From the NCBI GenBank assembly GCA_902783995.1, contig CACZTG010000059.1, positions 1 through 15,070 on the forward strand: a DNA stretch of 15,070 nucleotides, given 5' to 3'. The notes below the pieces were generated by a model. It made no database searches and was not told the origin of the DNA. It saw nothing but the letters and a program-made list of their open reading frames with translations. The translations under genes were made by a program, and so were the position numbers. Shown here in pieces: positions 1 through 15,070 of this stretch. Position 1 is the first letter of the stretch. Every line of letters starts with the position of its first letter. This stretch comes from an uncultured Ruminococcus sp. GTDB lineage: Bacteria > Bacillota_A > Clostridia > RUG12999.

Positions 1-2515
1 CCTCTGTTGACTTATAACCGGTATTTGAAGCCTGCGTGAAGGTGACACCGTTATCGGCAGATTTGGATACGCCTGATGTGCCAATCACAAATACATATTT
101 TTTGTAATTTGAATTGTCCGTATTTATAAGCGTTTCAACATCGTATGCATCCGAGCTTTTTGCTACGGTAAAGCTGTCACCGCGGTTTGTGCTTTTGTAA
201 AGAACTCCGCCTTTTGCGACAAACAGTGTTCCGTCATAAGGACTTACCGCGAGCTCTGCCGCGCCAAAACCCGAATTTATAAGCTCCCATGTGTATCCGC
301 CGTCTGTACTGCGGTACAAACCTTCGCCCTCGTTCCAGCCTTTTTCTATCTCGTATGCCGATATATCTCTCGTGTGCGCGGCAAGGCTGAAACCCGTTGA
401 AACAGTCGAATAATACACTACCGCGCTTCCGCCCGTACCATCGCACAAGCTCGCGTCATATGATGTCGGGTCCCACGCAAACGCGTCGCGTTTTCTCAGT
501 TTTTCACGCGGGCTTCCCGATGAGTCGACGTTATTGTCAACGTCGTTTATTATCATGGTCTGCGTAAAGGTTTCCGCTCCGTCCTCCGACAAATACAGAC
601 CTCTTCCCCTGTAATTCTGCTCGGTCAGCTGCTTGTATCCGCTGCTTCCGTAAACTCCCTGATACGTTCCGCCTATTACTCTGTCGGGATTACAGGGGTC
701 TATAACTCCCATACTGAGCCCTGAAGCACTTATATTTCTGCCGCATTCGCGCCATGTTGCTCCGCCGTCGGTGCTTTTGTTTATACAGCCGACATCCGCA
801 AAGGATAATATCATGCTTCCGTCCTTTGAAATTGACGTATATGTCTGCACCTGCCCTCCGGAGCCACCCGAATGCCCATGCGAGAGCTGTTTTTTTGATA
901 CTATCGGCACAGGTTCCCATTCTATGCCGCGACTGTTTGAAACGTCATAGGTATGCCCGGACTGATAACCGACAGAGGTTATGTCCAGCGTTTCTGATTC
1001 TGTAACCGGGCGTATGCTTTCACTACCGTTCCATAAAAAGGCCTTTGCCGTGCAGTTTTGCTCCGAAATCCCTTCAATTTGCACCGTATTACCATCACTT
1101 ACGGCGGTTTCCGTCAATTTACCGTCCCGGTATACGGCCGCAATTTTTTTTGTACCCTGCGGCGCGTTGCGGAATTTTGCGATAAATTCACTGTTTGCAA
1201 CACTCAGATCTATTGCTATCCGCGTCCCGGTCGTTACCGTCCAGACCTCCTCGCGATTTCCTAACGAAGCGGCATATTTCTTTGTAAGCGTTCCGTCCGA
1301 GTATGTCGTTTCGCTCATAGGAGTGATTTCGACTCCCGCTTTTTTATAAAATTCAACTTCATCTATATTGCCGTCCGAAAAGGTGATGCTTCTCTGCGCC
1401 GTATCCGCACAGATATATTTCCCGTCAAGCGTCGCTCCCATTATCAGCGAATTGTCCTCCGGTATTCCCGACGTCTGCCGCGACGTAAGCGTCAACGTCC
1501 ACCGGTTTATAACGCCGTTCATATTTCTCACGTACATCGGCGTCTGCAAAACATAGTTGTTTCCGCTCACAGTAACCTCAAGCGGAGCGCTGTCAAGGCT
1601 TACGCTGCATTCCTGCGGGTAATAATATCCACCGCCCGGTGAGCGACCGTCATCGGCGTCGGAGTTGTACAGCTCAAGGTTCAGATCCGACGCTTTTAGC
1701 TGCTCAAGCTTATCCTTTCTCATATTGTCAGGCAAACCGGCTGTCACCGTGTGGCTGAAATTATCGACCGTTACAGAGTTCCCCGATACTGAGCCGCCTA
1801 TAATGCTTTCGTCAAAGCTCTGCGCCTCGCTTTGCGTCTTGAAAAAAGCTATATACTTAAGATTTACACCGCCTGTGTGCTTATAATCCGAACTGTTATA
1901 TTTTAAATCTGCTAATGTAAACTTTAAATCGCTTTTGTTAAAAGACGATAATGACGGAAATTTGATTATGCTTGAAACATATTTTTTATATGTTATAGCG
2001 CCGCCTGAATTTACAATATTGCTTGAAGACAGCTTTGCCGTCGTAGTCTTTTCACCGTTTACACTGTATATGTCATAAACACTTACCGAGCTTGAGCCTG
2101 CCGATAGCTTGCCGCTTCCGAGATTTACCGACGAAGACGCTGCCGTATCGCCCTTAATCGTTGATATATCGTACGACATTCTTATATAGGGGTAGCTCTT
2201 TACGATACTGTTTGTCCCTGCAAATGTTATACTTTGAGCGTTTGTGCTCCATAACTGCAGTTCAAGCGCGGGTCCGCCGTAGTAGCACGAGCGCGGGAAC
2301 ATAAACTTAGCCAGCTGTGAAGAAGCAGAGTATGCGCCTGAGCCTCCGTTTATAAAGTTATTGACTTTTTCGAAGCTTGAAAAGTCATAAATATAATATG
2401 TATGACCCGAATTTGTCTTTGATTCACAGTAAGCAGATGCACCCATTGCCGAAATCGTAAGCAATGATGCGAGCATAATCAGCGAAATTGTTATACTTGT
2501 AATTTTTTTGAACAT
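1..2515 (-). CDS. Secreted BNR/Asp-box propeller protein, GH74-like (3' end outside window)
   Basis: An open frame of 838 codons runs from ATG at 2515 to the window edge without a stop, so the gene is partial. GAGGA lies 7 bases upstream of the ATG and overlaps the previous gene's stop codon. Residues 1-28 form a signal peptide (KK, hydrophobic stretch, then GASA). Residues 38-235 look like a jelly-roll binding module ending in YIAFFKT; about 236-345 and 430-510 look like small Ig-like beta modules. From about residue 530 a beta-propeller begins, with Asp boxes STDGGATW (581-588), SEDGAETF (643-650), STDGGYTW (737-744), STNRGDSF (775-782) and SADNGVTF (819-826). FADVG (572-576) resembles the TDVGG catalytic-Asp motif of GH74, pointing to Asp574. 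It is a clear paralogue of the 1110-aa product just upstream (shared WEPVP, SGLS, WDPTSYD, GWNEG). No SLH repeat is visible in this part; one could lie beyond the edge. Enzyme activity is inferred, and a binding-only role is possible. Confidence 0.88.
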   Translation of the reverse strand, partial: MFKKITSITISLIMLASLLTISAMGASAYCESKTNSGHTYYIYDFSSFEKVNNFINGGSGAYSASSQLAKFMFPRSCYYGGPALELQLWSTNAQSITFAGTNSIVKSYPYIRMSYDISTIKGDTAASSSVNLGSGKLSAGSSSVSVYDIYSVNGEKTTTAKLSSSNIVNSGGAITYKKYVSSIIKFPSLSSFNKSDLKFTLADLKYNSSDYKHTGGVNLKYIAFFKTQSEAQSFDESIIGGSVSGNSVTVDNFSHTVTAGLPDNMRKDKLEQLKASDLNLELYNSDADDGRSPGGGYYYPQECSVSLDSAPLEVTVSGNNYVLQTPMYVRNMNGVINRWTLTLTSRQTSGIPEDNSLIMGATLDGKYICADTAQRSITFSDGNIDEVEFYKKAGVEITPMSETTYSDGTLTKKYAASLGNREEVWTVTTGTRIAIDLSVANSEFIAKFRNAPQGTKKIAAVYRDGKLTETAVSDGNTVQIEGISEQNCTAKAFLWNGSESIRPVTESETLDITSVGYQSGHTYDVSNSRGIEWEPVPIVSKKQLSHGHSGGSGGQVQTYTSISKDGSMILSFADVGCINKSTDGGATWRECGRNISASGLSMGVIDPCNPDRVIGGTYQGVYGSSGYKQLTEQNYRGRGLYLSEDGAETFTQTMIINDVDNNVDSSGSPREKLRKRDAFAWDPTSYDASLCDGTGGSAVVYYSTVSTGFSLAAHTRDISAYEIEKGWNEGEGLYRSTDGGYTWELINSGFGAAELAVSPYDGTLFVAKGGVLYKSTNRGDSFTVAKSSDAYDVETLINTDNSNYKKYVFVIGTSGVSKSADNGVTFTQASNTGYKSTE

Positions 2516-2522
2516 TTTTTCT

Positions 2523-2527
2523 TCCTC
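2523..2527 (-). promoter_or_regulatory. Ribosome binding site overlapping the preceding stop codon
   Basis: On the minus strand this reads GAGGA, 7 bases before the ATG at 2515. It shares bases with the TGA stop (2526-2528) of the 1110-aa gene, which suggests translational coupling of the two propeller genes. Confidence 0.8.
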
Positions 2528-5500
2528 ACTTATTCAATTTATAAGGCGGAGCAAGCTTGTATGTGCCCGTATTTGCCATACCAACCCACAAATAACCTGT
2601 TTCAGGATGAACAAACATGGTTTTAATGTTATGGCGTCCTACTACCGGCCCTGTTTTCACAACCGTTTTATCGTTATCGACGGTTGAAATTACCTGCCAT
2701 GTTTCGCCGCTGTCACAGCTTCTGAGGATAGTGTAAAGCACATCCGATTCTTCGTGATAGCTTGAATCCGAGCTTGTACCGCCGACATAGATAACCTCCG
2801 GATTTATCGGATCCACTGCCATGCTCCATGCCCAGAAGGACTTTGTTATCTTTTTCATATTGGGTTCAAGCGACGTAAGAACGCCGTTTTGATATTTCCA
2901 CAAATACCCGTATTCGCCAAAATACAGAATATCGTTTTTGTAATCATAATCCACGGCATACTGTATGGAATTATATTCCCTCGAAGTATCAGGCTCAACC
3001 GATATAACCTTCTGCCAGGTTTCTCCGTTATCATCTGTTTTTAATATTTCATAACGCGAGGCGCCGATAGCAAAAATTGTCGGATAATCCTTATTGTATG
3101 CCATAACAGAATATATTCCTTCCATTTGCGCCCAATTATGACCTCCGTCTAAGCTCCTGTATTTTCCGCAGAATATTACATCGGGATCGGTAGGCGACTG
3201 GAACATTCTGTTATAAAGGTATCCGTTTTCTACCTCAAGAAGCGTTTCCCAATTCTCGCCACCGTCAAAGGTTGCCATAAGAGTTGAGTTTTTGCCTTCC
3301 CAGCCCTTGGTGTTACAAATAAACACCGTATTCTCATCAAGAGCATACCCGCCGTACAGATGGTGAAGATCCCACGGTTTTCCGAATTCTTTAATAAACG
3401 TAAATGTTTTTCCGCCGTCAAACGTGACCGCACCGTGGAAGTCCTGCGCAGGTATCATCATATAATCGGGATTATATGTGTTAGGCCGCCACCAGCCGTT
3501 TATACAGGTCGCAACGCCGCCGTCATAATCCCATTCAAGAGTTTTGCCTGCGTCGTGGCTGCACTGCACCATATCCGCAGTCACCCAGACTTTATTTTCG
3601 TCAGTCGGATGATATTCTATCATTTTAGCTCTTGGCTGAAGATCATAAAATCCGTTGCCCGTATACACCGACTGTGACCACGAATTTCCTCCGTCTACCG
3701 AATACATAATCTGATACCTGTCATTAACTATCGCGCTCTTTGTAAAATACGCCATATGCTGAGGATTTGCAGGGCTTACCCTGAACACCATCGCGCCGTC
3801 ACTTATGCTGCCCTTACCTATCTTTTTCCATGTTTTGCCGCCGTCCTCCGTTTTTTCAACTCCCGTCATTTTTGCTATATACACGCTTTTAGGCTCCGTA
3901 TGTATCAAATCATATGCCTCGACACCTGTTTGTATAACTGTGAAATTGACTCCTTTATCCGTACTCCTGTAGAGTGTTTCGTGCTGCAGGGCATAAAGTG
4001 TTCCGTCTTCAAAGCTCACCATCAGATCGGCATTTAACATATCGGGATTTACAAGCTTCCAGGTATAGCCGCCGTCATCGCTCCGGTAAAGACCGAGTCC
4101 CTCATTCCAGCCCTGCTCTGTTTCGTAATCCTTTATTTCTTTGGTTTCGCCATCTACGGTCTCGGAAATAGGAGAATAGTAAACAATACTGCTTCCGCCA
4201 ATTTTCTCATCATATGATGTGGGATCCCACGCGACAAGGTGCTTTGCTCTGGCAATCTCCCTGTCATTGTATCTCATCACCTGCTTGAAGTTTTCTGCGC
4301 AGTCTTCAGACAGGTATAAGCCCTCGCCTGTACGTTTCTGCCGTATGTAGTTTGCGGCGTTACCGTATCCTCTGTCACCCGAGATCGCTATGACTCTGTC
4401 CGAATTGTTAGGGTCGATTTCACCAACGCTAAGTCCCGACCCGTTCACGCCTCTGGCGACTTCCATCCAGTTATCGCCGCCGTCACAGCTGCGCATAACA
4501 TTTCCGACATCGGCAAAGGCTATAACAATATCACCTGTAGTGTCCGCCGTTATCCATGTAAGATACTGGCCGCCCTCGCCTCCGGGATGTCCCTCGTCAA
4601 GAAGCTTTTGCGAAACGAACGGAACGGGCTCCCACTGCGCTCCCCATGAATTGTACACGTCAAATTTTCCGTCAAGCAGAGCCGCGGCGCCGCTGCCGCC
4701 CGTTTTGCCTACAGAGCCGTCGGCAACGAGCATTATGTCAGAAAACGCCCAGAAGCTTCTCGGAACATCACTAAACAGCTCCTCAAAATCCCGGTCGCCG
4801 TCAGGCTTTATCCCCAAAACTCTGTTAAGTGTTTTCACTGCCTCCGCCCTTGTAAGATATGCGTCTGCCATAAACGTACCGTCCTCATATCCCGAAAAAA
4901 CATTTCCGGAATGCAAAAGTACGCCGTATAAATCATCTGTCACAGGCACATCGGAAAATTCCTTGTTTTCCTCCGAATCAAACGCGCCGAGACGGTATAT
5001 CATATACGCAAGCTCGCCCCTTGTCACATTATCCCCCGGTCTGAACGCGCCGTCGCTCAATATTATACCGTTTGCAAAAAGCTTGCAAATATCCTCATAA
5101 TACCATGCCGCCGCGTCCACATCGGTATAAGGAAGCTCTTCATTTTTGTCCGCTGCCGAAATTATACGCGAAAGCATAGCGCAGATCTCCGCACGCGTTA
5201 CAAGCCCGTTAGGTCTGAAGGTGCGCTCCGCATATCCCTTTACATACGACGCCGAATAATTAAGCATCAGCTTGCCGGCGCTGTCTCCCTCATTTTTCGT
5301 ATAAATAACGGGTCCTGTGCCGTCATCGTCATACTCATTATAAGCCTCCGCCGCGCTTTCGCTTTCAAAAAAACCTATATAGTCAATATAAAACGTACCG
5401 CCGGAGGACCATACGTCGGACCTTGCCGGATATAATGATATTTCCGATACGGCATTTGGTATTTTTGCCGGAATGACCGTTTCATACCACCGATTTTGGG

Positions 5501-5858
5501 CCTTGCCCGAAAACTTATCCAGAACATAGTCCGTATCACCTATATTCAGCTCGAGCTGCGCATCCGGGTTCACGGAGCTTCTGAAAAAATATCTGCATTT
5601 TATGTATCTCTTTCCCTGCAGCTCCTCTTTTTTCACCGGTATCACTGCGGCTATGTTTTTTTCGTAATTCACGCTTACCGCAAGGCATCCGAACAGCGTA
5701 TCTATGCCCGCCTTTGAATAGCCGGCGCCGTTTTTAATACACACCTCTGAATTGTTATCATTAAAGCCTACTATATATTCCGAATCTGCGAAAGCGCCGT
5801 TTGTACCGGCAAACAGCATACTGATAAGGAGTATAAGTAAAACCGTCTTCTTTTTCAT
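2526..5858 (-). CDS. SLH-anchored two-propeller BNR/Asp-box protein, GH74-like
   Basis: 1110 aa, exported. The start is ATG at 5858, because a signal peptide (MKKKTVLLILL to about residue 24) begins there; an in-frame start at 5915 would overlap the previous gene and put 19 polar residues ahead of it. Residues 26-175 form a jelly-roll-like module ending in DYIGFF. Residues 196-347 hold three SLH repeats with TRAE (221-224), TRGE (279-282) and TRAE (336-339), which normally bind pyruvylated cell-wall polymer. Residues 400-1110 carry about twelve Asp boxes, for example SDDGGYTW (593-600), SVDGGNSW (720-727), TFDGGENW (863-870) and SCDSGETW (1047-1054). About 710 residues fits two seven-bladed propellers, as in GH74 xyloglucanases. 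ADVG (449-452) and QDFHG (805-809) resemble the two GH74 catalytic-Asp regions, giving candidates Asp450 and Asp806. A sialidase-like or non-enzymatic propeller remains possible. Confidence 0.92.
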   Translation of the reverse strand: MKKKTVLLILLISMLFAGTNGAFADSEYIVGFNDNNSEVCIKNGAGYSKAGIDTLFGCLAVSVNYEKNIAAVIPVKKEELQGKRYIKCRYFFRSSVNPDAQLELNIGDTDYVLDKFSGKAQNRWYETVIPAKIPNAVSEISLYPARSDVWSSGGTFYIDYIGFFESESAAEAYNEYDDDGTGPVIYTKNEGDSAGKLMLNYSASYVKGYAERTFRPNGLVTRAEICAMLSRIISAADKNEELPYTDVDAAAWYYEDICKLFANGIILSDGAFRPGDNVTRGELAYMIYRLGAFDSEENKEFSDVPVTDDLYGVLLHSGNVFSGYEDGTFMADAYLTRAEAVKTLNRVLGIKPDGDRDFEELFSDVPRSFWAFSDIMLVADGSVGKTGGSGAAALLDGKFDVYNSWGAQWEPVPFVSQKLLDEGHPGGEGGQYLTWITADTTGDIVIAFADVGNVMRSCDGGDNWMEVARGVNGSGLSVGEIDPNNSDRVIAISGDRGYGNAANYIRQKRTGEGLYLSEDCAENFKQVMRYNDREIARAKHLVAWDPTSYDEKIGGSSIVYYSPISETVDGETKEIKDYETEQGWNEGLGLYRSDDGGYTWKLVNPDMLNADLMVSFEDGTLYALQHETLYRSTDKGVNFTVIQTGVEAYDLIHTEPKSVYIAKMTGVEKTEDGGKTWKKIGKGSISDGAMVFRVSPANPQHMAYFTKSAIVNDRYQIMYSVDGGNSWSQSVYTGNGFYDLQPRAKMIEYHPTDENKVWVTADMVQCSHDAGKTLEWDYDGGVATCINGWWRPNTYNPDYMMIPAQDFHGAVTFDGGKTFTFIKEFGKPWDLHHLYGGYALDENTVFICNTKGWEGKNSTLMATFDGGENWETLLEVENGYLYNRMFQSPTDPDVIFCGKYRSLDGGHNWAQMEGIYSVMAYNKDYPTIFAIGASRYEILKTDDNGETWQKVISVEPDTSREYNSIQYAVDYDYKNDILYFGEYGYLWKYQNGVLTSLEPNMKKITKSFWAWSMAVDPINPEVIYVGGTSSDSSYHEESDVLYTILRSCDSGETWQVISTVDNDKTVVKTGPVVGRHNIKTMFVHPETGYLWVGMANTGTYKLAPPYKLNK

Positions 5859-5868
5859 GATAATGTCG

Positions 5869-5872
5869 CTCC
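5869..5872 (-). promoter_or_regulatory. Ribosome binding site deciding the start at 5858
   Basis: On the minus strand this reads GGAG, 10 bases upstream of the ATG at 5858, a slightly long spacing. It lies just after the TAG stop of the 947-aa gene (5876-5878). It supports the short form that begins with the signal peptide. Confidence 0.6.
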
Positions 5873-5875
5873 ATT

Positions 5876-8719
5876 CTATTCGATAATAACAAACTGCGCC
5901 TCTGAATAACCCCATTTTCTTACCTGAATAACACGGTGACAGTTTTCTCCGTAGACCTTATAATCCTTGATATCCCTGTACGTCATTCCTCCGTTATTTA
6001 TCTGACCGTTGCTCATTACCTGATATTTGTTTTCTCTTTTATCAAGAAATATTGTTACATCATCACCAAAATCCTTTAACGTCGCAATATTGAAATCCAG
6101 ATTCTCAGGATTTTTAACCGAGCCGTCCTTCAGATTTTCATACGTGACACGTGCATATCCGTCCTTTATCTCATAAACATCAAAGAACTGTATTCCCGGA
6201 TAATCCAATATATCTCCCATCTGCCTCGGCATAGGGTCATTACCGCTTGAGTCGCCCTCAAGCCTTGACGACGCCTTAAACGCTTTAAGCGGCTCCGTTT
6301 CGCTCGCATCGTATATAAGCCTGACAACGGTTATCTCATCCCTTGAATTAAGATCATACCATATTATATCGCCTACGCCAAGCTCATAGGTCTGCTCATC
6401 CTTATCATAAAGCACTTTATTTGCCGGATCGCTGTAGGACTGCCCTGCCGCATATACTGCTTTACAGAATTTGTCCTCCGTCGCATAAATTTTTGTTGAC
6501 GAATAGCCTGTGCCCACAACAGTCAGCTCCGTTACGACCTCATCATTTCTTAAAACGGTTTTTATTTTTCTTATCATCCTGATGATATGCTGCGTAGGCT
6601 TTTCCTTGCTCGCATTACTTTCATCTCTTACAAGAATTACGTCCGCAGTAAAACCGTCGTCAAAGCTGTACGCCTCGATCTTGTATTCACTGTCGTTTTT
6701 AAAATACTTTGAAGGATCACCGAGATAGAATCTGAAATCATCCTCGGTAGCCTGCCTTACCTGCTGAGCGGTACCGGCCGGCGCCACTACAACGGTCGCC
6801 GCGTTATCGGCAACCACCTTTACGACGCGGCCGAACGTGTATGCGGCGCTCTTATACCAAAGCTTAGACGTATTTGTTCCGATATACGAGGAAAAAATTA
6901 TTCTGAAGCTCGATGCACTTTCAGTCTCGTTCGGTATGCGCTCCGTAAGCGGCGTAGGGTCGACCTCAAGCGGCTGATTGTTATACGGCGTGTCGATCTC
7001 CGTTATTTCCCCTTCATTGTTTTTCTTATAACGTATAAGCTGAGGCATTACCTCTCCCGTTCCCTTTGACAGCGCCTCAAGCGCAGAGTCAATGGTCATT
7101 TTTTTTCCGTCAATCTTGATTTTATCATCTTTTGAATAGAATACCTCAATCTTATTGTCTGATGTAAAAATGCTGAGTACAAGCGCCTCGCCTATAACCT
7201 CATGCCTTTCTGATTTTCTCGCTTCTTTCAAAAATCCAAGCTCTGAATTTTCGACTTCATTTTCTAAGAATACAAGTAATCCCTCGCTGTTTATGTACGC
7301 CGAAACCTCCATCCCGGCTCTGATATTTTTTACATATTTTGAAAAGTAATCATAACATAATTTATACTCGTTATTGTCTATTTTTATTATGCTGTTATCT
7401 TCGTCCGCGGCATACTCCGCAATGCTTCCTTTAACTTTTTTGGTTGAAAGCTTTATGCTTACTGATTTTCCCGTTTTGCTTTCATAAACCTGCAAAATAT
7501 TTCCTTGTTTAATTGAATCTACCGTTATTTCGGCGCCATCCTTTAAAACCTTCAAAAAATCAGCATCTTCATATGTTACAGGCAACTCGCCGTTAGTATC
7601 GTAAATTTTATACTCTTTACGGTCTGTGCTTGCCACAATAAGAGTTCTGTACTCATTTATGAATACAACATCATATCTGCCGTTATAATCGGTATCAACG
7701 AGCCTTATATCACCGTATTCCGGTTCTAAATCACTTGCAGTATATCCGGACCATTCAACACCGTTATATATTACTGTTTTAACCGTGTCAAGATTGGCGC
7801 GTTTCATTTTTTCTCCGTCATAATATTTATACAAATTACCGCTGTAGCTTACAATATCGGCTGCCGAAAACTGTACCACCCGGGAATTATAATCGGGATA
7901 TACATAAATAAGCTTACGTTTTTCTGTCTGCTCATTATTAATAGTTATAAAATTTATTTCACAGCCTAAATACGGATTCATATCAAGCTCTGTATTATAT
8001 AATTCGGAGCTGATTTTAACCTTTCCCTTACCTGCTCCGACAGGAGAATCGAGCGCCGTCATGTCGGTCGCTTCAACTTTGCCTTTCAGAGCTTGTGCAT
8101 CAAAATGGGCTTCTATATATCTTTCATCACTTTTTTCAAATAATATATCTTTGGAGTACGAAATTGCAGCCACTTTTTCATAAAGCGCATCTACCAATAT
8201 ATCTGCAAGCTTTGAAAAGGTTATTTCTGCGTCCTTATTTACATTTTTACATAAATTCAAGGACCTTGCCGCAGGAATATAACCTCCATAATACTTTGCA
8301 GCCATATTATAACCGAGCGACTTTATAACAAGTCTTATAACATCTGCCCCCACAATAGCCTTGTCTGCATTAAAAGAGCCCGACAATCCATCGTCCATAA
8401 GCTCAGATTCAACAGCAGTTACCACATATTGCGCCGATTTTTCATCTACATCATCGTAGCGCGAATTTGCAGAAAGCACATCCAGACCGTAAAATCTTAC
8501 GGCTACTTCGGCAAAATCCTTGCGCGTTACCTGTTCTGCTGCTTTTTCAAGCATCTCACCACTGTAAATGCCAAGAATTTGCAGAACTCTCATTCTCTCT
8601 GTCGCGGGCTCTGCAATTTTCTCTTCACCGTCATTTGCTGCGCCCGCGGCGCAGAACGGTAACATAATCAAAAAAATCATGCTGACAACGAGTAAAAATG
8701 CTATGCTTTTCTTCCTCAT
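5876..8719 (-). CDS. Large exported protein with degenerate N-terminal SLH repeats and beta-rich body
   Basis: 947 aa. The start is ATG at 8719, preceded by AGGAG; an in-frame GTG at 8737 would read through that site. Residues 1-28 are a signal peptide ending near CAAGAA. Residues about 40-185 read as three weak SLH repeats: VTRKDF (64-69) keeps the TRAE-type motif, while the repeats near 123-137 and 167-182 have lost it. The remaining 760 residues match no family I recognise. They look like a string of small beta modules. Two of them (about 428-488 and 735-805) share a pattern of short strands followed by a Gly turn and a hydrophobic strand carrying Asn/Asp-Gly-type turns (AGMEVSAYIN and VGDIIWYDLN). 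Residues 338-358 (DTDYNGRYDVVF) also have the look of a repeated surface domain. No catalytic signature is visible. Its place between SLH proteins suggests a wall scaffold, S-layer component or glycan-binding protein; this is inference. Confidence 0.9.
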   Translation of the reverse strand: MRKKSIAFLLVVSMIFLIMLPFCAAGAANDGEEKIAEPATERMRVLQILGIYSGEMLEKAAEQVTRKDFAEVAVRFYGLDVLSANSRYDDVDEKSAQYVVTAVESELMDDGLSGSFNADKAIVGADVIRLVIKSLGYNMAAKYYGGYIPAARSLNLCKNVNKDAEITFSKLADILVDALYEKVAAISYSKDILFEKSDERYIEAHFDAQALKGKVEATDMTALDSPVGAGKGKVKISSELYNTELDMNPYLGCEINFITINNEQTEKRKLIYVYPDYNSRVVQFSAADIVSYSGNLYKYYDGEKMKRANLDTVKTVIYNGVEWSGYTASDLEPEYGDIRLVDTDYNGRYDVVFINEYRTLIVASTDRKEYKIYDTNGELPVTYEDADFLKVLKDGAEITVDSIKQGNILQVYESKTGKSVSIKLSTKKVKGSIAEYAADEDNSIIKIDNNEYKLCYDYFSKYVKNIRAGMEVSAYINSEGLLVFLENEVENSELGFLKEARKSERHEVIGEALVLSIFTSDNKIEVFYSKDDKIKIDGKKMTIDSALEALSKGTGEVMPQLIRYKKNNEGEITEIDTPYNNQPLEVDPTPLTERIPNETESASSFRIIFSSYIGTNTSKLWYKSAAYTFGRVVKVVADNAATVVVAPAGTAQQVRQATEDDFRFYLGDPSKYFKNDSEYKIEAYSFDDGFTADVILVRDESNASKEKPTQHIIRMIRKIKTVLRNDEVVTELTVVGTGYSSTKIYATEDKFCKAVYAAGQSYSDPANKVLYDKDEQTYELGVGDIIWYDLNSRDEITVVRLIYDASETEPLKAFKASSRLEGDSSGNDPMPRQMGDILDYPGIQFFDVYEIKDGYARVTYENLKDGSVKNPENLDFNIATLKDFGDDVTIFLDKRENKYQVMSNGQINNGGMTYRDIKDYKVYGENCHRVIQVRKWGYSEAQFVIIE

Positions 8720-8727
8720 ATTTAAAT

Positions 8728-8732
8728 CTCCT
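8728..8732 (-). promoter_or_regulatory. Ribosome binding site deciding the start at 8719
   Basis: AGGAG on the minus strand, 8 bases before the ATG at 8719. It falls inside the frame extension from the GTG at 8737, so the ATG is the better start. Confidence 0.75.
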
Positions 8733-8740
8733 AACACTTG

Positions 8741-10996
8741 TTATCTTGCTTCCCTGACATTCATTAAAGCTGTTACTATAATTGTCGCTTCCGCCCTTGT
8801 CATATCACGTTTCGGCTCAAATCTGCCGTTACTTCCGTTTATCAGCCCCATCTGTTTTAATGTTGCAACAGCTTTTTTTGCATACCCCGCAATATCTTCG
8901 TCATCACCGAAATCCGAGCTGTCCGTTTCTTCCTCGATTTTTCCCATTTTCTTCAGAACATTTTCTGCAATTACTGCCATATCCTGTCTGATAATATTTT
9001 TGCCTGTGCCGAATTCTTTTTCGGAAATACCGCTTATAATTCCGGCTCCGACAGCCTTTGAAATGGCGTCATAATACCATTTGTCAGCTTCGACATCGAC
9101 AAATTCCACCTTACTTTTTTCATTTATATCGAAAGCCTTTACAATCATTTGTACAAATTCCTCACGGGTGATACTGTCTCCCGGCGCAAAGCTGCCATTG
9201 CCCCTGCCGCTTATTATGCCTTTTTGATAAAGCTCCTCAATACTCGGTTTTGCCCAATCATATCCTTCAAGATCCTTAAACCCGTCATTTTTTGCGCCGC
9301 CTGAAGGCGTATCCGTAACGGGAACAGAATCAGAAACCGTAACCGGCGCATTTGACGGTTTGGCTTTTGAAATTACCGCTCCGCCGCCGCCGCTGTTTCG
9401 TGAAGGCGTCTTTTTACCAACCGCGGTGACTGCCGCCTCAAAAGCTTCTTTTAGCCCTTCGATGCTGTCAAATTGTTGCAGAGTCAGCATTTTATAGGCG
9501 CTTGCAATATTATCCGTTTTTGCGCAGACCTCATTATACGAAGTACTGTCATATCCTATAACCGCAAGATTGTCCTCAAACAGCTCTTTGATAATTCCAT
9601 AGCCTTCCTTCATAGATACGCCTAAAAGAAACGATTTTTTTACAAGCTCGGTACAAAAGCTTTCATAAGACAATTCATTCTTCGCCATATTGAACACCGT
9701 TTCACGTTCTTCACCTTTGAGCTTATTTAAAAATATTTTACTTACGTCCGATGTCTGAAGCTCTGTTCCTTCAATCAGATTTTCAAAAGCCTCGGCGGTA
9801 TCGCAAGCGCGTATTTTAGCATAGAATAATTCACCCGATATAATATCCGCATAATTGTCAAGCGTATATTTACCGGCATATGAGGTCAAAATTTTGGCAA
9901 GATTTGTCTTTTCATCTTCAGTCAGGTCATCATAACCCGCAACAAGCTTTGCAAGACCGTCACCAAAATCGGCAATAAGCTCGTCGCTGAAATCTATCGT
10001 TAAACCGTTGAGCTTATTAATGAGATTGTTCATATAAGTATCGTCAATCGGAGTACAGTTGATTTTTATCTCCCATATTTCCTTTTTATACTCATTATCC
10101 TCATGCTTTTGCTCTAACGACTGAATTTCATATTTCAAGTTGAAGGTATCGGATATATCGGATTCGGCTTTTGTACACCTCCCGTCCAAAAGCGTTATTT
10201 CCAGGTTATCCAAAGACAGCGTTTCCGGCGTTATTTCACCGTCGGGCATATCTATTGTTGCTGTATACTTAAATAAATCAAGCTCCGCCGAAAACTTGTT
10301 TTCGCCGTTTGTATATGTTATACTCTTTACTGACGGATCAAAATTTTCAGCATCCTCCGCCGTTTTAAAAAGACCTATATATTTTATTATTATGTCACAG
10401 TTAACCGCATTTTCCCCCGCATCTGCCGGCGAGAAAATCAACTTACGGCTATCAGGTACCGATTCCATCTGTTCTGTTGTAAAGGAAAGAAATGAATATG
10501 ACCTTCTGTAAATACCTCGCTGCTCGCAAGAAACACCGTCCTTATCCTTTACCTCCTTATTGGTTCCGGACGAAACAACTGTCGCCAGCTTTGACGCCGC
10601 CGCCGCCCCATCATATTTTATCCATGCGTCAAAGCTTCCTGTATATGCTGTCTGCTGATTATAGCTCATGCAAACTCTCGCGTACGGGTATTTGGATAAA
10701 TCGAGCGCGTCGTCAAATTTTATTGAAACCGTAGGAGATGCTGCATCTGCAACATGTAAAAACAGTCCAAAGCCACCGCTTGTATTCCTTGAGGCAACAT
10801 CGCTGATACTATAAGCGCTTCCGTTTTCTTCATCGTCATCTTTTAATATATTTACATATTCGGTTACTTCTTCTTCATCACAAAAATTCATGAAAATATA
10901 ATCAGGTCCGGCAGCTTCTGCTCCCAACGACACTGTTCCCCCCAATAATAAGGGAAAGATAATTAAAACCGAAACAACTCTAAAAACAGCCTTCAT
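8741..10996 (-). CDS. Exported protein with jelly-roll-like module, helical middle and three C-terminal SLH repeats
   Basis: 751 aa. The start is ATG at 10996, 7 bases after GGAGG; the in-frame GTG at 11014 would overlap the permease gene and precede that site. Residues 1-29 are a signal peptide (to about GAEAA). Residues 31-220 resemble the jelly-roll module of the two propeller proteins and end in the same signature (KYIGLFKT, 205-212). About 222-315 is a small beta domain. About 320-525 is helix-rich with many acidic and Leu positions and no motif I know. A low-complexity Gly/Pro/Ser/Thr linker (528-570) leads to three SLH repeats at about 572-622, 632-683 and 695-746, with TREE, IRQD and TRAE in the wall-polymer-binding position. 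No catalytic residues are recognised. The first surface protein after the importer genes, it is probably a wall-bound glycan-binding protein that helps feed the transporter; that role is inferred. Confidence 0.93.
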   Translation of the reverse strand: MKAVFRVVSVLIIFPLLLGGTVSLGAEAAGPDYIFMNFCDEEEVTEYVNILKDDDEENGSAYSISDVASRNTSGGFGLFLHVADAASPTVSIKFDDALDLSKYPYARVCMSYNQQTAYTGSFDAWIKYDGAAAASKLATVVSSGTNKEVKDKDGVSCEQRGIYRRSYSFLSFTTEQMESVPDSRKLIFSPADAGENAVNCDIIIKYIGLFKTAEDAENFDPSVKSITYTNGENKFSAELDLFKYTATIDMPDGEITPETLSLDNLEITLLDGRCTKAESDISDTFNLKYEIQSLEQKHEDNEYKKEIWEIKINCTPIDDTYMNNLINKLNGLTIDFSDELIADFGDGLAKLVAGYDDLTEDEKTNLAKILTSYAGKYTLDNYADIISGELFYAKIRACDTAEAFENLIEGTELQTSDVSKIFLNKLKGEERETVFNMAKNELSYESFCTELVKKSFLLGVSMKEGYGIIKELFEDNLAVIGYDSTSYNEVCAKTDNIASAYKMLTLQQFDSIEGLKEAFEAAVTAVGKKTPSRNSGGGGAVISKAKPSNAPVTVSDSVPVTDTPSGGAKNDGFKDLEGYDWAKPSIEELYQKGIISGRGNGSFAPGDSITREEFVQMIVKAFDINEKSKVEFVDVEADKWYYDAISKAVGAGIISGISEKEFGTGKNIIRQDMAVIAENVLKKMGKIEEETDSSDFGDDEDIAGYAKKAVATLKQMGLINGSNGRFEPKRDMTRAEATIIVTALMNVREAR

Positions 10997-11003
10997 AAAC
11001 GTT

Positions 11004-11008
11004 CCTCC
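11004..11008 (-). promoter_or_regulatory. Ribosome binding site deciding the start at 10996
   Basis: GGAGG on the minus strand, 7 bases before the ATG at 10996 and directly after the permease stop (11011-11013). It argues against the overlapping GTG start at 11014. Confidence 0.8.
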
Positions 11009-11010
11009 AA

Positions 11011-11862
11011 TCACCCTTTGACCGCTCCTGCCATCATGCCTTGTGTTATATGCTTATTGCCGAGTATAAACGCTGCAAGTACAGGTACTATCGCAATAAC
11101 GGTTGCCGCAAACATCAGGTTCCACGCAGATGCCGACTCACCCGAATTCTTTAATGCCATAATACCGACAATGAGCGTCTGCTGATCCGGTCTTGACATC
11201 GTAAACAGCGTCGGATAAAGATAATTATTCCATGAGCCGTTAAATCCCAACATACCTATTGTTATCATAACAGGCTTTAACAGCGGTAAAATTATTCTGA
11301 AAAATGTGCCCGTAAAAGAGCAGCCGTCTATTCGCGCAGCATCGTCAAGCGCTTTCGGAAGCGAATTTACAAACCCCCTTACAAGATATACCTCTATAAT
11401 AGGCATACTGAAGCATTCCATAACTATAAGCCCCCATAAAGATGAGCTTAGCTTTATTCTTCCCAATGTTTCAAACTGGGGATAAATGGTAATAGGTCCG
11501 AGTTTTACAAACATCAATGCTGTGAAAATCGCAAATATGATCTTTTTCCCTTTAAACTCTCCTCTTGCAAACACATACCCCGCAACCGAAGATAAAAACA
11601 GCAATATAAAAACGCTTGTAAGCGAATACCAGATACTGTTAAAAAACATTTGTCCAACCCTGAAATTTTCCGAATTCCAGGCAAGCGCATAATTCTCAAA
11701 CGTCCACTTCTTCGGGAATATTTTTTCGGCAGAGGTCAGGATTTCCGCATTTGTCTTAAACGATGCCATAAAGACGATTATAAGTGGGAAAATAACTATC
11801 AGAAACGCAATTATCAATATGGCATATATACAAATTTCATATATTGTTTTTTTCCTTTTCAT
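11011..11862 (-). CDS. ABC sugar transporter permease, MalG/UgpE type
   Basis: 283 aa inner-membrane permease of the CUT1 carbohydrate importer class. It opens with a basic stretch (MKRKK), then a long hydrophobic helix (about 8-33), and has about six membrane segments in all. The cytoplasmic EAA loop that docks on the ATPase is at about 168-193, with DDAARIDG at 173-180 and ILP at 191-193. The C-terminus ends ITQGMMAGAVKG, which is characteristic of MalG-type subunits. Length is typical (about 275-300 aa). The ATG at 11862 follows GAGGAGGG (11868-11875), which overlaps the stop of the partner permease, so the two are probably translationally coupled and made in equal amounts. The substrate cannot be read from the sequence; the neighbourhood suggests an oligosaccharide released by the surface proteins. 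Confidence 0.96.
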   Translation of the reverse strand: MKRKKTIYEICIYAILIIAFLIVIFPLIIVFMASFKTNAEILTSAEKIFPKKWTFENYALAWNSENFRVGQMFFNSIWYSLTSVFILLFLSSVAGYVFARGEFKGKKIIFAIFTALMFVKLGPITIYPQFETLGRIKLSSSLWGLIVMECFSMPIIEVYLVRGFVNSLPKALDDAARIDGCSFTGTFFRIILPLLKPVMITIGMLGFNGSWNNYLYPTLFTMSRPDQQTLIVGIMALKNSGESASAWNLMFAATVIAIVPVLAAFILGNKHITQGMMAGAVKG

Positions 11863-11873
11863 ATGTGCCCTCC

Positions 11874-12791
11874 TCAGTACAGATTTTGTGCACTGCTTGT
11901 GGCTTTACTGTAAATGCTTGCAATTATTATGTAAATTATGGAATTGATAATTGCAATGGAACATCCGTATCCGACATTCACGGTACCGGATGCAAAGCCG
12001 GGCACAAATTCGCCTATAAGATATGACATGGGAGTATGCGTCATTCCGCCGGGGGCGCCGTTTGTCATTACAATAACATAATCTCCCGTTTGCAGAGTTC
12101 CGTTTATTGCTAAAAGTAAAATCGTCTGGAATACCGGAATTATCATAGGAAGCGTTATGTAAAAAAACCGCGCCGTTCGCCCTGCGCCGTCAATTTCGGC
12201 CGCTTCATAAAGCTCCTCCGGAACATTTGTCAGCGCAGCCGTAAAATAAAGCACATTTGTACCGAAATTACCCCATATGGAGCCCAAAATAAGCAAGACC
12301 ATCGCCGTACTCTTTTTTGAATACCATTCTATCGGGCTTGAAATAAATCCCAATTTCCCCAGCCAATGGTTTGCAAACCCGAAATATCCGAATATGTTTG
12401 TAAATATTACACTTATGATTACTGCGGATATGATTTTAGGCATAAAAAAGCTTGCTCTGAAAAACCCGCTTCCCTTTAGTTTACGGCTTAATACAGTTGC
12501 CAAAAACAATGAAAGCACCAATTCAATGGGCACTTTAATGAATGTAAACTGCAAAAGTGTTAACCATGTTTTCCAATATTTCACATTTGTAAGCGCCGTC
12601 AGATAGTTTTTAAATCCGACCATGTGCTCATGCCCCGGAATGAGATCGTAAAATGTAAATGAGTGAAAGCCAACCCAATACATCGGATATACCGTGAAAA
12701 TAAAGAATCCTATCAGCGGCAGTGCTATCAAAAGATAGCACTGCAACTGTATTGATGTCTTTTCCTTCAATTCAAGCTTATACTTTGGCAT
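11874..12791 (-). CDS. ABC sugar transporter permease, MalF/UgpA (LplB-like) type
   Basis: 305 aa, the first permease of the CUT1 importer and heterodimer partner of the next gene's product. A short charged N-terminus is followed by a membrane helix at about 17-40 (ending near TVYPMYWV) and roughly five more. The EAA loop is at about 192-217 (EELYEAAEIDGAG, then ITLP), the contact for the shared ATPase. NGAPGGMTHTP (244-254) is the periplasm-facing segment typical of MalF/UgpA-like proteins. ATG at 12791 has GAGGG 5 bases upstream, and only 15 bp separate it from the binding-protein gene. No ATP-binding subunit is encoded in the window, as is common in Clostridia and Bacilli, where one MsmK-like ATPase can serve several importers; that part is inference. 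Confidence 0.96.
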   Translation of the reverse strand: MPKYKLELKEKTSIQLQCYLLIALPLIGFFIFTVYPMYWVGFHSFTFYDLIPGHEHMVGFKNYLTALTNVKYWKTWLTLLQFTFIKVPIELVLSLFLATVLSRKLKGSGFFRASFFMPKIISAVIISVIFTNIFGYFGFANHWLGKLGFISSPIEWYSKKSTAMVLLILGSIWGNFGTNVLYFTAALTNVPEELYEAAEIDGAGRTARFFYITLPMIIPVFQTILLLAINGTLQTGDYVIVMTNGAPGGMTHTPMSYLIGEFVPGFASGTVNVGYGCSIAIINSIIYIIIASIYSKATSSAQNLY

Positions 12792-12806
12792 ATTTTCCCT
12801 CTATTC

Positions 12807-14198
12807 TTATCTTTTGGCATCCCAGTCTTTATCTATGTACGGTGTTGCATCGTAATCAGGATACAACTTCTTATATTCTTCTATGCCATCGTTAAGATTT
12901 TTCTGCCATTCTGCTCCGATTTCTTCAATTTCCTTGTCGGATAACATATTGGGCCATATTTTTTCAAGCCATTGCTTGCTCATGCTATCCTTTCCTGTTG
13001 TATCTGTTTTTATAGCCGCTTCCGAAGGTTTGCTTATATCCGCAAGCTTACAGAAAGCCTCCCAGTTCTCTCCCTGAACAAGACCGGAATCAATCTTTGC
13101 GCCTTCAACAAATGATGAATTCAAAGGAATATCAAGCCCCTCTTCATACGCTCTCTTTATATAGTCACTGCTGTAGAAGAGTTTTAAAACCTCAGCAAGC
13201 TTATCAGCGCCCTTTTCGTTCAGTGATGCTTTATTAACATAATATCCGCCCGATAAATCCATATGCTGCTTATAAACATGATCTAAATCTTTTACAGGAA
13301 ACGGCGCAACTCCCCAGTTTATTTTTGCAGGAAATTGGGTTGTAAGAACACCGTAATCAAAGCTGCCGGCAGTCTTCATACCAATGCCGCCTTCCGCAAA
13401 CAAAGCCCTCGCCGGGTCGTTATCCAGACCCTCAACATCGGGATAGTAGCTTCCGTCCTTCTTTATGCCAATGTGAATTTTAGCAACCTCGACCTCGCTG
13501 CTTGTATCAAATTTTCCCGTCGCCGGATTATATGAGCTTATAAACCCGATAGACGGAACAGCCATTTTGGCAACGTCTATTCCGTACCATGCGGAGAATT
13601 TGCCCGGATATATAATTCCATACTCTTTCTTTTCGGTATTTGTAAGAATTTTTGCGTACTCTCTCAACTCATCAAGTGTTTTTGGCGGAGTTGCTTCACC
13701 ATTCTCATCTACAAGCCCGGCCGCCTTGAACATATCAATATTATAGATAAGTCCGTATACGGTACAGCATCTCGGAACAGTATAGGTTTTTCCGTCTATC
13801 ATGCTTCTTGTCGGCAGTATGTAGTCGGAAAATCTTTCCATGATTTCTTCTGTTCCCGGTATATCCTCGAAAGCAGCAATCTGGTCATTTGCTACCATTT
13901 TTTCCATATCTCCGCCCTGGAAAATATCCGGCGCCGTTCCGTTCTGCATTGCAAGGTCTATTTTTTCGGACATGCCTCCGCTCTGAACGGTGTATTCAAT
14001 CCTTATATCCTTTTCCTTTCCCACGGTATTGTTCCATTCTTCAACAATACCGTTCACGAAAGCCTTATCATGACCATTGCCTGTCCATACCTTTACTACA
14101 GTTATGTCGTCGTTTGCTTTGTCCTTACAACCGGATGTAACGCCGATAAGCGACATACACAAAATCGCAACAATAACCTTTTTAAAACTCTTTTTCAT
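12807..14198 (-). CDS. ABC sugar transporter substrate-binding lipoprotein
   Basis: 463 aa family 1 extracellular solute-binding protein, the receptor of the importer and first gene of the operon. The start is ATG at 14198: GAGGTGAT lies 4 bases upstream and the lipoprotein signal begins there. An in-frame ATG at 14246 would add 16 polar residues and sit in the leader. The signal peptide ends in the lipobox VTSGC with Cys24 as the lipidation site, so the mature protein is tethered to the outer face of the membrane. Features typical of the family include the early VVKVWTG strand, PDIFQGGDMEKM, and YTVPRC followed by a hydrophobic hinge strand (TVYGLIYNIDMFKAAGL). Aromatic residues (Trp, Tyr) in the mature part would suit sugar stacking, but the sugar bound is not identifiable. 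It sits 66 bp downstream of a strong promoter. Confidence 0.95.
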   Translation of the reverse strand: MKKSFKKVIVAILCMSLIGVTSGCKDKANDDITVVKVWTGNGHDKAFVNGIVEEWNNTVGKEKDIRIEYTVQSGGMSEKIDLAMQNGTAPDIFQGGDMEKMVANDQIAAFEDIPGTEEIMERFSDYILPTRSMIDGKTYTVPRCCTVYGLIYNIDMFKAAGLVDENGEATPPKTLDELREYAKILTNTEKKEYGIIYPGKFSAWYGIDVAKMAVPSIGFISSYNPATGKFDTSSEVEVAKIHIGIKKDGSYYPDVEGLDNDPARALFAEGGIGMKTAGSFDYGVLTTQFPAKINWGVAPFPVKDLDHVYKQHMDLSGGYYVNKASLNEKGADKLAEVLKLFYSSDYIKRAYEEGLDIPLNSSFVEGAKIDSGLVQGENWEAFCKLADISKPSEAAIKTDTTGKDSMSKQWLEKIWPNMLSDKEIEEIGAEWQKNLNDGIEEYKKLYPDYDATPYIDKDWDAKR

Positions 14199-14202
14199 AG
14201 CT

Positions 14203-14210
14203 ATCACCTC
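14203..14210 (-). promoter_or_regulatory. Ribosome binding site of the binding-protein gene
   Basis: GAGGTGAT on the minus strand, 4 bases before the ATG at 14198. It fixes the start and rejects the upstream in-frame ATG at 14246, which has no proper site in front of it. Confidence 0.85.
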
Positions 14211-14263
14211 ATATTTTTTTGATTCAACAAATTTTTTTACATACATCTCTACTTACTAATATA

Positions 14264-14292
14264 ATTATATCATCATAAAATTACTAAATCAA
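14264..14292 (-). promoter_or_regulatory. Sigma-A promoter of the importer/surface-protein operon
   Basis: On the minus strand: -35 TTGATT (14287-14292), a 17-bp spacer, then a perfect -10 TATAAT (14264-14269) preceded by TGA, an extended -10. Transcription should start near 14257, leaving an AT-rich leader of about 60 bases in which I see no riboswitch or hairpin. It is the only good promoter seen for the seven downstream genes, whose spacing of 10-21 bp leaves little room for others. Confidence 0.8.
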
Positions 14293-14303
14293 GTTAATAA
14301 TTT
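14278..14303. promoter_or_regulatory. Dyad centred on the -35 box, candidate operator
   Basis: Plus strand arms AAATTACTAA (14278-14287) and TTAATAATTT (14294-14303) are inverted repeats matching at 9 of 10 positions around a 6-base spacer. The -35 hexamer lies across the centre, so a bound dimer would block RNA polymerase. It does not match the catabolite-repression (cre) consensus. The arms are pure A/T apart from one base, so chance is a real alternative. Confidence 0.35.
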
Positions 14304-14332
14304 GTAAACCGGCTGCAGCTTTTTGGCTTTTT

Positions 14333-15070
14333 TCACCGTTTTTTCTTTTCTTCCAAATACCGGCTTATTGAAAGATATGTCCCCGCTGTCCAACCCAGCA
14401 TCGTTGTCTGAGAATTGCTTACCGGTCTGTTATTTCCTTCGACCGCGTTGTATTTTTCCCAAAGCTCTCCCGTTTCTTCAAAAACCCTCTCGACCATATT
14501 TATATATTTTTTACCTATCCTTACGGCAATATCCGTAAACCCGTACCTTTCAAGTCCAAACACCGTAAGATACTGAATACATGGCCACGCGTTGGGATAC
14601 GCCCATTGAAAAACTCCTTTAACATCGTGCTTTTCACAAACTGTTATACCGTAATCGGTTTCAATACGCCCGATGTTTTCTGAAACAGCCTTTGCCTGTT
14701 CTTCATTTGCAAGTCCAAAAAAAAGAGGATACACGCACGCATCTGTGAACATTCCAAGCTCCTTTGTATCAAGCGAATAATCATAGAACAGCATATCCTC
14801 CGAAAGCAAAAACTCATTCATCAGCTTTTTCCTTTTTTCCGCGCGATTTATCCACAGCTCAGATTCACCCGTGCCGAGCACATCCGAAAAATATTCCATA
14901 TTTTTTTCAAGTCCGTACAGTATTGAATTTAAGTCAACCTGAACATACGAATGTCCTTCAATTCCCCATCTGTAGCACAGATGCAGTCCTGCCTCGCAGC
15001 ATATTAAATACTGCCTTGCCATATCGTACTCCGTCATATCGGGTCTATATCCGAGCCTTTCCGCAAATCC
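14333..15070 (-). CDS. GH37 trehalase-like protein, C-terminal part (5' end outside window)
   Basis: The frame is open to the right edge, so only the last 245 codons are seen. Family marks in order: EAGLHLCYRW, matching the trehalase segment SGWDFSSRW; VDLNSILYGLEKN; FYDYSLD; QWAYPNAWPCIQYL, matching the QWDYPNGWAPLQ signature; GELWEKYN, matching the EKY segment of the catalytic base; and LGWTAGTYL, matching GFGWTNGV. This order fits the alpha/alpha-barrel of GH37. However, the catalytic-acid Asp of SGWDFS (Asp312 in E. coli TreA) is His here (codon 14981-14983), and the Gly-rich GGEYPLQDG loop is replaced by an unrelated NNRPVSNSQ stretch. The EKY Glu is kept (codon 14456-14458). True trehalase activity is therefore doubtful; it could act on another glycan, or only bind. 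It is followed by its own 134-bp gap with the next operon's promoter. Confidence 0.85.
   Translation of the reverse strand, partial: GFAERLGYRPDMTEYDMARQYLICCEAGLHLCYRWGIEGHSYVQVDLNSILYGLEKNMEYFSDVLGTGESELWINRAEKRKKLMNEFLLSEDMLFYDYSLDTKELGMFTDACVYPLFFGLANEEQAKAVSENIGRIETDYGITVCEKHDVKGVFQWAYPNAWPCIQYLTVFGLERYGFTDIAVRIGKKYINMVERVFEETGELWEKYNAVEGNNRPVSNSQTTMLGWTAGTYLSISRYLEEKKKR

Follow-up and report, generated by a model that had tools for sequence, protein, structure and literature searches.

What do two adjacent genes for Asp-box propeller proteins do in an uncultured Ruminococcus sp., and how far does their likeness to the enzymes of glycoside hydrolase family 74 (GH74) reach? The window, meaning here the whole stretch of 15,070 nucleotides that was analysed (contig CACZTG010000059.1, positions 1 to 15,070), holds eight genes, all on the minus strand. 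Two of them, named protA and protB below, are a real, well-formed pair with a putative activity, GH74-like by fold, profile and catalytic residues and outside the sequence range of the solved GH74 enzymes. We consider it probable that they arose by an old duplication and belong to a separate clade of GH74-type enzymes whose substrate is not xyloglucan; excerpts of two reports describe GH74 as xyloglucan-specific (PMC8245568, PMC10317168). The features on which the argument turns are as follows.

2526 to 5858, minus strand: protA, 1110 amino acids (aa), with a signal-peptide-like start (judged by eye), a jelly-roll-like module, three SLH repeats and a GH74-like double propeller.
4722 to 5258, minus strand: the three SLH repeats of protA, a wall-anchor region at about aa 201-379 (Pfam SLH; repeat motifs).
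2526 to 4676, minus strand: the GH74-like double propeller, spanning about aa 395-1110 of protA (AF2 model; VIA-align).
4509 to 4511, minus strand: Asp450 of protA, matching the first catalytic Asp of GH74, that of RTDIGG.
3630 to 3632, minus strand: Arg743 of protA, at or adjoining the position where GH74 has the LGW/GHW Trp.
3441 to 3443, minus strand: Asp806 of protA, matching the second catalytic Asp of GH74, that of GDxxGF.
2 to 2515, minus strand: protB, its first 838 aa, running past the window edge, with a signal-peptide-like start (judged by eye), then modules and the first part of a GH74-like propeller.
794 to 796, minus strand: Asp574 of protB, which corresponds to Asp450 of protA.

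The start of protA was taken as the ATG at 5858; the working reference was one codon shorter, and its alignment positions 449, 742, 804 and 805 are residues 450, 743, 805 and 806, as verified at the codons.

The propeller of protA was modelled by AF2 as the tandem, seven-bladed double propeller that characterises GH74, with a pLDDT mostly above 90. Rows 1-18 of a VIA-align comparison were all GH74 and covered model residues 391-1109, and the TMq values in Foldseek were 0.36-0.45 for GH74 as against 0.14-0.18 for sortilin, chains of which were listed from E 4.2e-15 with low TM. The GH74-like tandem propellers proposed in the preliminary description are thus borne out by both structure-model and profile comparison. 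The sequences, however, fall beyond the range of the solved and characterised GH74 enzymes, as their proposed position outside standard GH74 had anticipated: protA alone found no GH74 chain in the PDB at E 0.1, whereas one GH74 reference used alone as a control retrieved 17 sequences from the PDB at E 1e-30 or below, and the hidden Markov model (HMM) of the family matched all seven GH74 references only in fragments. The NCBIfam model NF045728 (F510_1955 family glycosylhydrolase) gave partial matches to protA (108.1 bits) and protB (52.7 bits), both below its curated cut-off of 175. The GH74 endo-xyloglucanases Xgh74A (2cn2), PoGH74 (6mgj) and ClGH74a (6p2m) resemble the clade in having two seven-bladed Asp-box propellers with the Asp pair at the same places, but share only 16-18% identity with it; in the clade the Trp of AWW and LGW and the Arg of RTD are not kept, an invariant Gln precedes the second Asp and most members have a WDPTSYD-GWNEG insert. 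The oligoxyloglucan reducing-end-specific cellobiohydrolase of GH74 (1sqj, 2ebs) also has its fold in common with the clade. Sortilin/Vps10 and Ycf48-type propeller proteins, which are receptors or assembly factors, share the Asp-box repeats and are the origin of the generic Pfam and database names, sortilin being the weaker structural match; the Vps10/sortilin type is marked by a ten-bladed propeller with 10CC domains.

Residue conservation was counted over relatives of protA. Family membership was not judged by HMM score alone, since many-repeat propellers reach 230-340 bits as against 56-91 for the GH74 references; it was instead defined by a single-domain span of more than 600 model positions, which 173 of 322 proteins had. 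With P0161 (a 492-aa piece) and P0182, P0220, P0222, P0228 and P0229 (best domain from about model position 190) added, there were 179 rows, namely 178 relatives and protA in place of P0001; protB was omitted because it is cut by the window edge. Because many rows are near-identical dockerin proteins, 56 representatives of under 70% identity were also chosen. The GH74 references were taken from plasmid records by means of a stretch of 2cn2, and seven of the eight were used.

The catalytic Asp pair of GH74, which we take to act as base and acid, is found in the clade, one in each propeller. A global hhalign profile alignment of the 56 representatives with the GH74 references spans both propellers (E 2.1e-55) and places Asp450 on the first GH74 Asp with a posterior of 0.9999. 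In all three modes of MAFFT, both Asp of all seven references share columns with Asp450 and Asp806, and these columns hold Asp in 56/56 representatives and 179/179 rows. The second Asp of protB lies outside the window; it is present in all eight full-length relatives of the protB type. The first GH74 catalytic Asp is Ala in the 2cn3 chain, and a D60A mutant of PoGH74 is among the deposited structures.

The surroundings of the pair are altered. According to an excerpt of PMC10317168, Tyr372, Trp347, Trp348 and Trp406 in the groove of PoXEG74 affect processivity, Trp347 and Trp348 being required; counting along the printed chain, we assigned Trp347/Trp348 to the AWW pair and Trp406 to the LGW Trp. 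Among the representatives, Trp occurs at the AWW columns in 0/56 and 2/56 and at the two LGW columns in 0/56; in the six columns at AWW, protA itself has only a Tyr, at the end. Arg743 occupies a column that is Arg in 171/179 rows (52/56 representatives), and the residue before the second Asp (805 in protA) is Gln in 56/56 where GH74 has Gly or Ala. The long, non-standard insertion noted earlier corresponds to a family insert around WDPTSYD and GWNEG, for which a helix is predicted at 569-581 of protA; two residues within or adjoining it, Asp545 and Tyr560, are each kept in 177/179 rows. Since P0182 is visibly shorter there, the insert marks subgroups rather than the whole clade.

If protA and protB are such enzymes, each would clasp a polysaccharide chain in the groove between its two seven-bladed Asp-box propellers and would cut it, as GH74 enzymes do, in a single inverting step, the base and the acid being one Asp from each propeller (Asp450 and Asp806 in protA). 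The clade has not retained the Trp residues that stack on xyloglucan in GH74 and has a fixed Arg and a fixed Gln next to the putative active site; its substrate is therefore probably a different branched polysaccharide of the plant wall, a pectic chain containing uronic acid or rhamnose being the leading guess. ProtA would be held at the wall by its SLH repeats, protB would be secreted free of that anchor with its carbohydrate-binding-like modules, and the released oligosaccharides would be taken up by the ATP-binding cassette (ABC) importer of the same putative operon. A bolder form of this proposal, which we hold to be unlikely, is that of an undescribed glycoside hydrolase family built on the GH74 double propeller and Asp pair, cutting acidic, rhamnose-containing pectin of the rhamnogalacturonan type with an Arg/Gln grip in place of the tryptophans, and represented here by an enzyme pair of ancient origin, one anchored at the wall and the other free. 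A clade with its catalytic pair kept, its recognition surface changed and dockerins on some members would show a double-propeller scaffold moving to a new substrate. The locus gives a defined protein pair, with point mutants, for seeking an activity on plant fibre among proteins that databases now name only sortilin-like or photosystem-assembly-like.

Accessory domains of the relatives support polysaccharide degradation. In a Pfam rescan of 21 family proteins besides those of the window, dockerins were found in P0053, P0114 and P0215 (P0114 having a cohesin domain as well), an F5/8-type domain in P0220 and a CBM4_9 in P0229. In P0182 a GH78 alpha-L-rhamnosidase is naturally fused to a propeller of the clade in which both Asp are kept; this fusion is the best clue to the substrate and supports, from one case only, a rhamnose-containing polymer.

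Several observations weigh against a new substrate or against the alignment on which it depends. An aromatic residue follows directly after the AWW columns in 36/56 representatives, and Tyr, Trp or Phe lies within the six AWW columns in 47-48/56; a modified aromatic platform may therefore persist. The GH74 references are themselves uneven, with W in 4/7 and 4-5/7 at AWW and, in the Arg743 column or an adjacent one, in 5/7. Three residues that are invariant in 7/7 references, the Arg of RTD, the Glu of GIEE and the Asp of LDYA, are not kept in the family, which could also mean a changed chemistry. The hhalign posterior for Asp806 on the second GH74 Asp is only 0.51, and, because propellers are repeats, alignments shifted along them in an earlier run still scored highly, though much worse than the unshifted one (1.2e-33 and 6.3e-26 vs 1.7e-45). 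The 179 rows include many near-copies, the rhamnosidase fusion is the sole case among the matches listed, and no measured activity was found for any member of the clade.

One alternative is that the two proteins are divergent but ordinary GH74 xyloglucanases with an unchanged substrate and different stacking residues. The identical fold and Asp pair, the aromatics near the AWW site in most members and the sugar importer encoded in the operon would all suit it; moreover, an excerpt of PMC8245568 describes a Xanthomonas GH74 enzyme that lacks the +3 and +5 aromatics, uses arginines and still cuts xyloglucan, and caution is therefore needed in reading a substrate from such residues alone. Against it stand the PDB search, in which protA as a single sequence found no GH74 structure at E 0.1, and the loss of positions that are invariant across seven references; we think this alternative rather improbable. 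Less likely still, in our judgement, is that the proteins are non-catalytic and merely bind glycans on a GH74 scaffold. Vps10 receptors, as stated in an excerpt of PMC2716378, are Asp-box propellers that are not carbohydrate-active enzymes, and Sortilin-Vps10 tops the general Pfam matches of protA (82.8 bits); anchoring by SLH would fit a surface capture protein, as would the loss of several GH74-invariant residues. A binding surface, however, should not need both Asp in every one of the 179 rows, and there are dockerins on some relatives and a rhamnosidase on one. An enzyme clade with a changed substrate remains the preferred reading.

That protA and protB are related is far beyond chance: BLASTP gave 138/307 identical residues (45%), 224 bits and E 4e-65. 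The seven motifs reported earlier (WEPVP, GGxGGQ, FADVG, SGLSxG, IDPxN, WDPTSYD and GWNEG) occur once in each protein in identical order, from WEPVP at 4634-4620 to GWNEG at 4112-4098 in protA and from 919-905 to 340-326 in protB, and the shared stretches given for them, 4637-4059 and 922-287, contain these motifs plus short flanks. In a tree of 55 propellers (53 of the 120 listed homologues, the best 120 of 862, and the two window proteins), A-types (protA and P0002-P0008) and B-types (protB, P0009-P0012, P0014, P0015, P0018 and P0019; 1274-1401 aa) stand on opposite sides of a 100/99 branch, with protB filling 39% of the columns and the short P0023 grouping with B. One A-type and one B-type appear together on three further contigs, as judged from contigs matching in size and source: P0005/P0009 (12,572), P0006/P0014 (15,531) and P0008/P0010 (21,716). 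No partner was visible on the longest contig for the remaining four A-types and five B-types. Because of the branch split and the further contigs with both copies, the duplication is placed before the lineages that carry A and B, and the old duplication kept as a pair, as first proposed, is upheld to that extent. P0038 and P0039, sisters in the tree with contigs both of 10,481, suggest that in another branch of the clade a tandem pair arose recently and independently.

The duplication had been taken to suggest two activities on one polysaccharide, either endo versus exo or main-chain versus side-chain cleavage. Such a split would be compatible with the distinct enzyme clade preferred here, and the age of the pair, its being kept together and differences in the loops, the B propellers closest to protB being longer (755 aa in P0012 and 749 in P0015 vs 715), speak for it. 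Only 7/715 positions, however, differ consistently between the A and B groups (at least 7/8 agreeing in each), and none is a signature residue, these being the same in both groups except for Glu428, which is Ser in 2/8 B-types. The steady difference is instead SLH, present in 8/8 A-types and 0/8 full-length B-types; as judged from the sequences, it concerns anchoring and not visible chemistry. The two activities therefore find no support, and we regard a division into two chemistries as possible but rather improbable. Since SLH is also present in other branches of the clade, B may have lost it.

In protA, Pfam SLH scored 72.9 bits (cut-off 20.8) in three stretches, with TRAE/TRGE motifs at aa 221, 279 and 336, which makes it an SLH wall-anchored protein. 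No SLH was found by Pfam scan in the visible part of protB, and the cell-surface location proposed for both proteins is unsupported for protB. In a model with a confidence of only 70, protB has a carbohydrate-binding-module-like jelly roll (about aa 35-230), a beta-sandwich and an FN3/Ig-like domain at aa 432-515, which agrees in part with the Ig-like modules described earlier. By the pattern used, there are 11 Asp-box-like motifs in protA and 3 or 4 in visible protB. The N-terminal halves had been called different: this holds for the SLH region, which lies between N-terminus and propeller in protA only, but the first modules are not wholly unrelated. In hhalign, with profiles built from only 10, 2 and 1 sequences, the first modules of protA, protB and a further SLH protein of the window, protD, gave probabilities of 91% (protA/protB), 68% (protA/protD) and 96% near the start (protB/protD), with short stretches in common, chiefly the YIGFF/YIAFF end strand. 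This related module is perhaps a common wall- or substrate-binding part.

Homologue searches scored about 8000 candidates sharing most words, with up to 120 listed. The genome scan with protA gave one Bacteroidales contig (24% identity), and 295 sampled Bacteroidia genomes gave no match at 1e-20 (at most three candidates scored per genome, with no positive control). On that contig, adjacent Asp-box propeller genes at 2194-4734 (846 aa) and 4741-7401 (886 aa) form another tandem pair; against the family HMM their products give only fragmentary matches, of 108 and 50 bits. Viral contigs gave four loci at 23-26% identity, phage records no match, and the best 20 of 54 plasmid matches were propellers at 22-27% identity and otherwise SLH. 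The viral structure library returned generic propellers (TMq up to 0.22), with a beta-1,4-xyloglucan hydrolase by name in row 50 (phage Motura, E 3.3e-6). No title on the clade stood among the matches listed from the open-access literature (subscription papers and CAZy being outside its scope).

The neighbouring features are the following.

14264 to 14292, minus strand: promoter-like TTGATT-17-TATAAT just upstream of the binding-protein gene, its second hexamer preceded by TG (10/12 matches).
12807 to 14198, minus strand: extracellular sugar-binding protein of an ABC importer (SBP_bac_1 84.7 bits; PDB relatives bind sugar).
11874 to 12791, minus strand: carbohydrate ABC permease, MalF/UgpA-like (NCBIfam models below their cut-offs).
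11011 to 11862, minus strand: carbohydrate ABC permease, MalG/UgpE-like (NCBIfam models below their cut-offs).
8741 to 10996, minus strand: protD, SLH protein (113.3 bits) with an N-terminal module resembling those of protA and protB (hhalign).
5876 to 8719, minus strand: protC, 947 aa, between protD and protA, with a signal-peptide-like start (judged by eye).

From the binding-protein gene through protB the intergenic gaps are 10-21 bp (17 bp between protC, upstream, and protA), and a GGAG-like stretch precedes each gene; the seven genes, for the sugar importer, the SLH protein, protC and the propeller pair, probably form one operon, with the binding-protein gene first. Single promoter-like sites are weak evidence because 55 were found in the window vs 34.2 in shuffles. 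ProtC had no Pfam or NCBIfam match above cut-off. The gene at the other edge (14333-15070), cut by the end of the window, encodes a trehalase/MGH1-like hydrolase, of which the C-terminal part is visible (125.1 bits for Pfam Trehalase).

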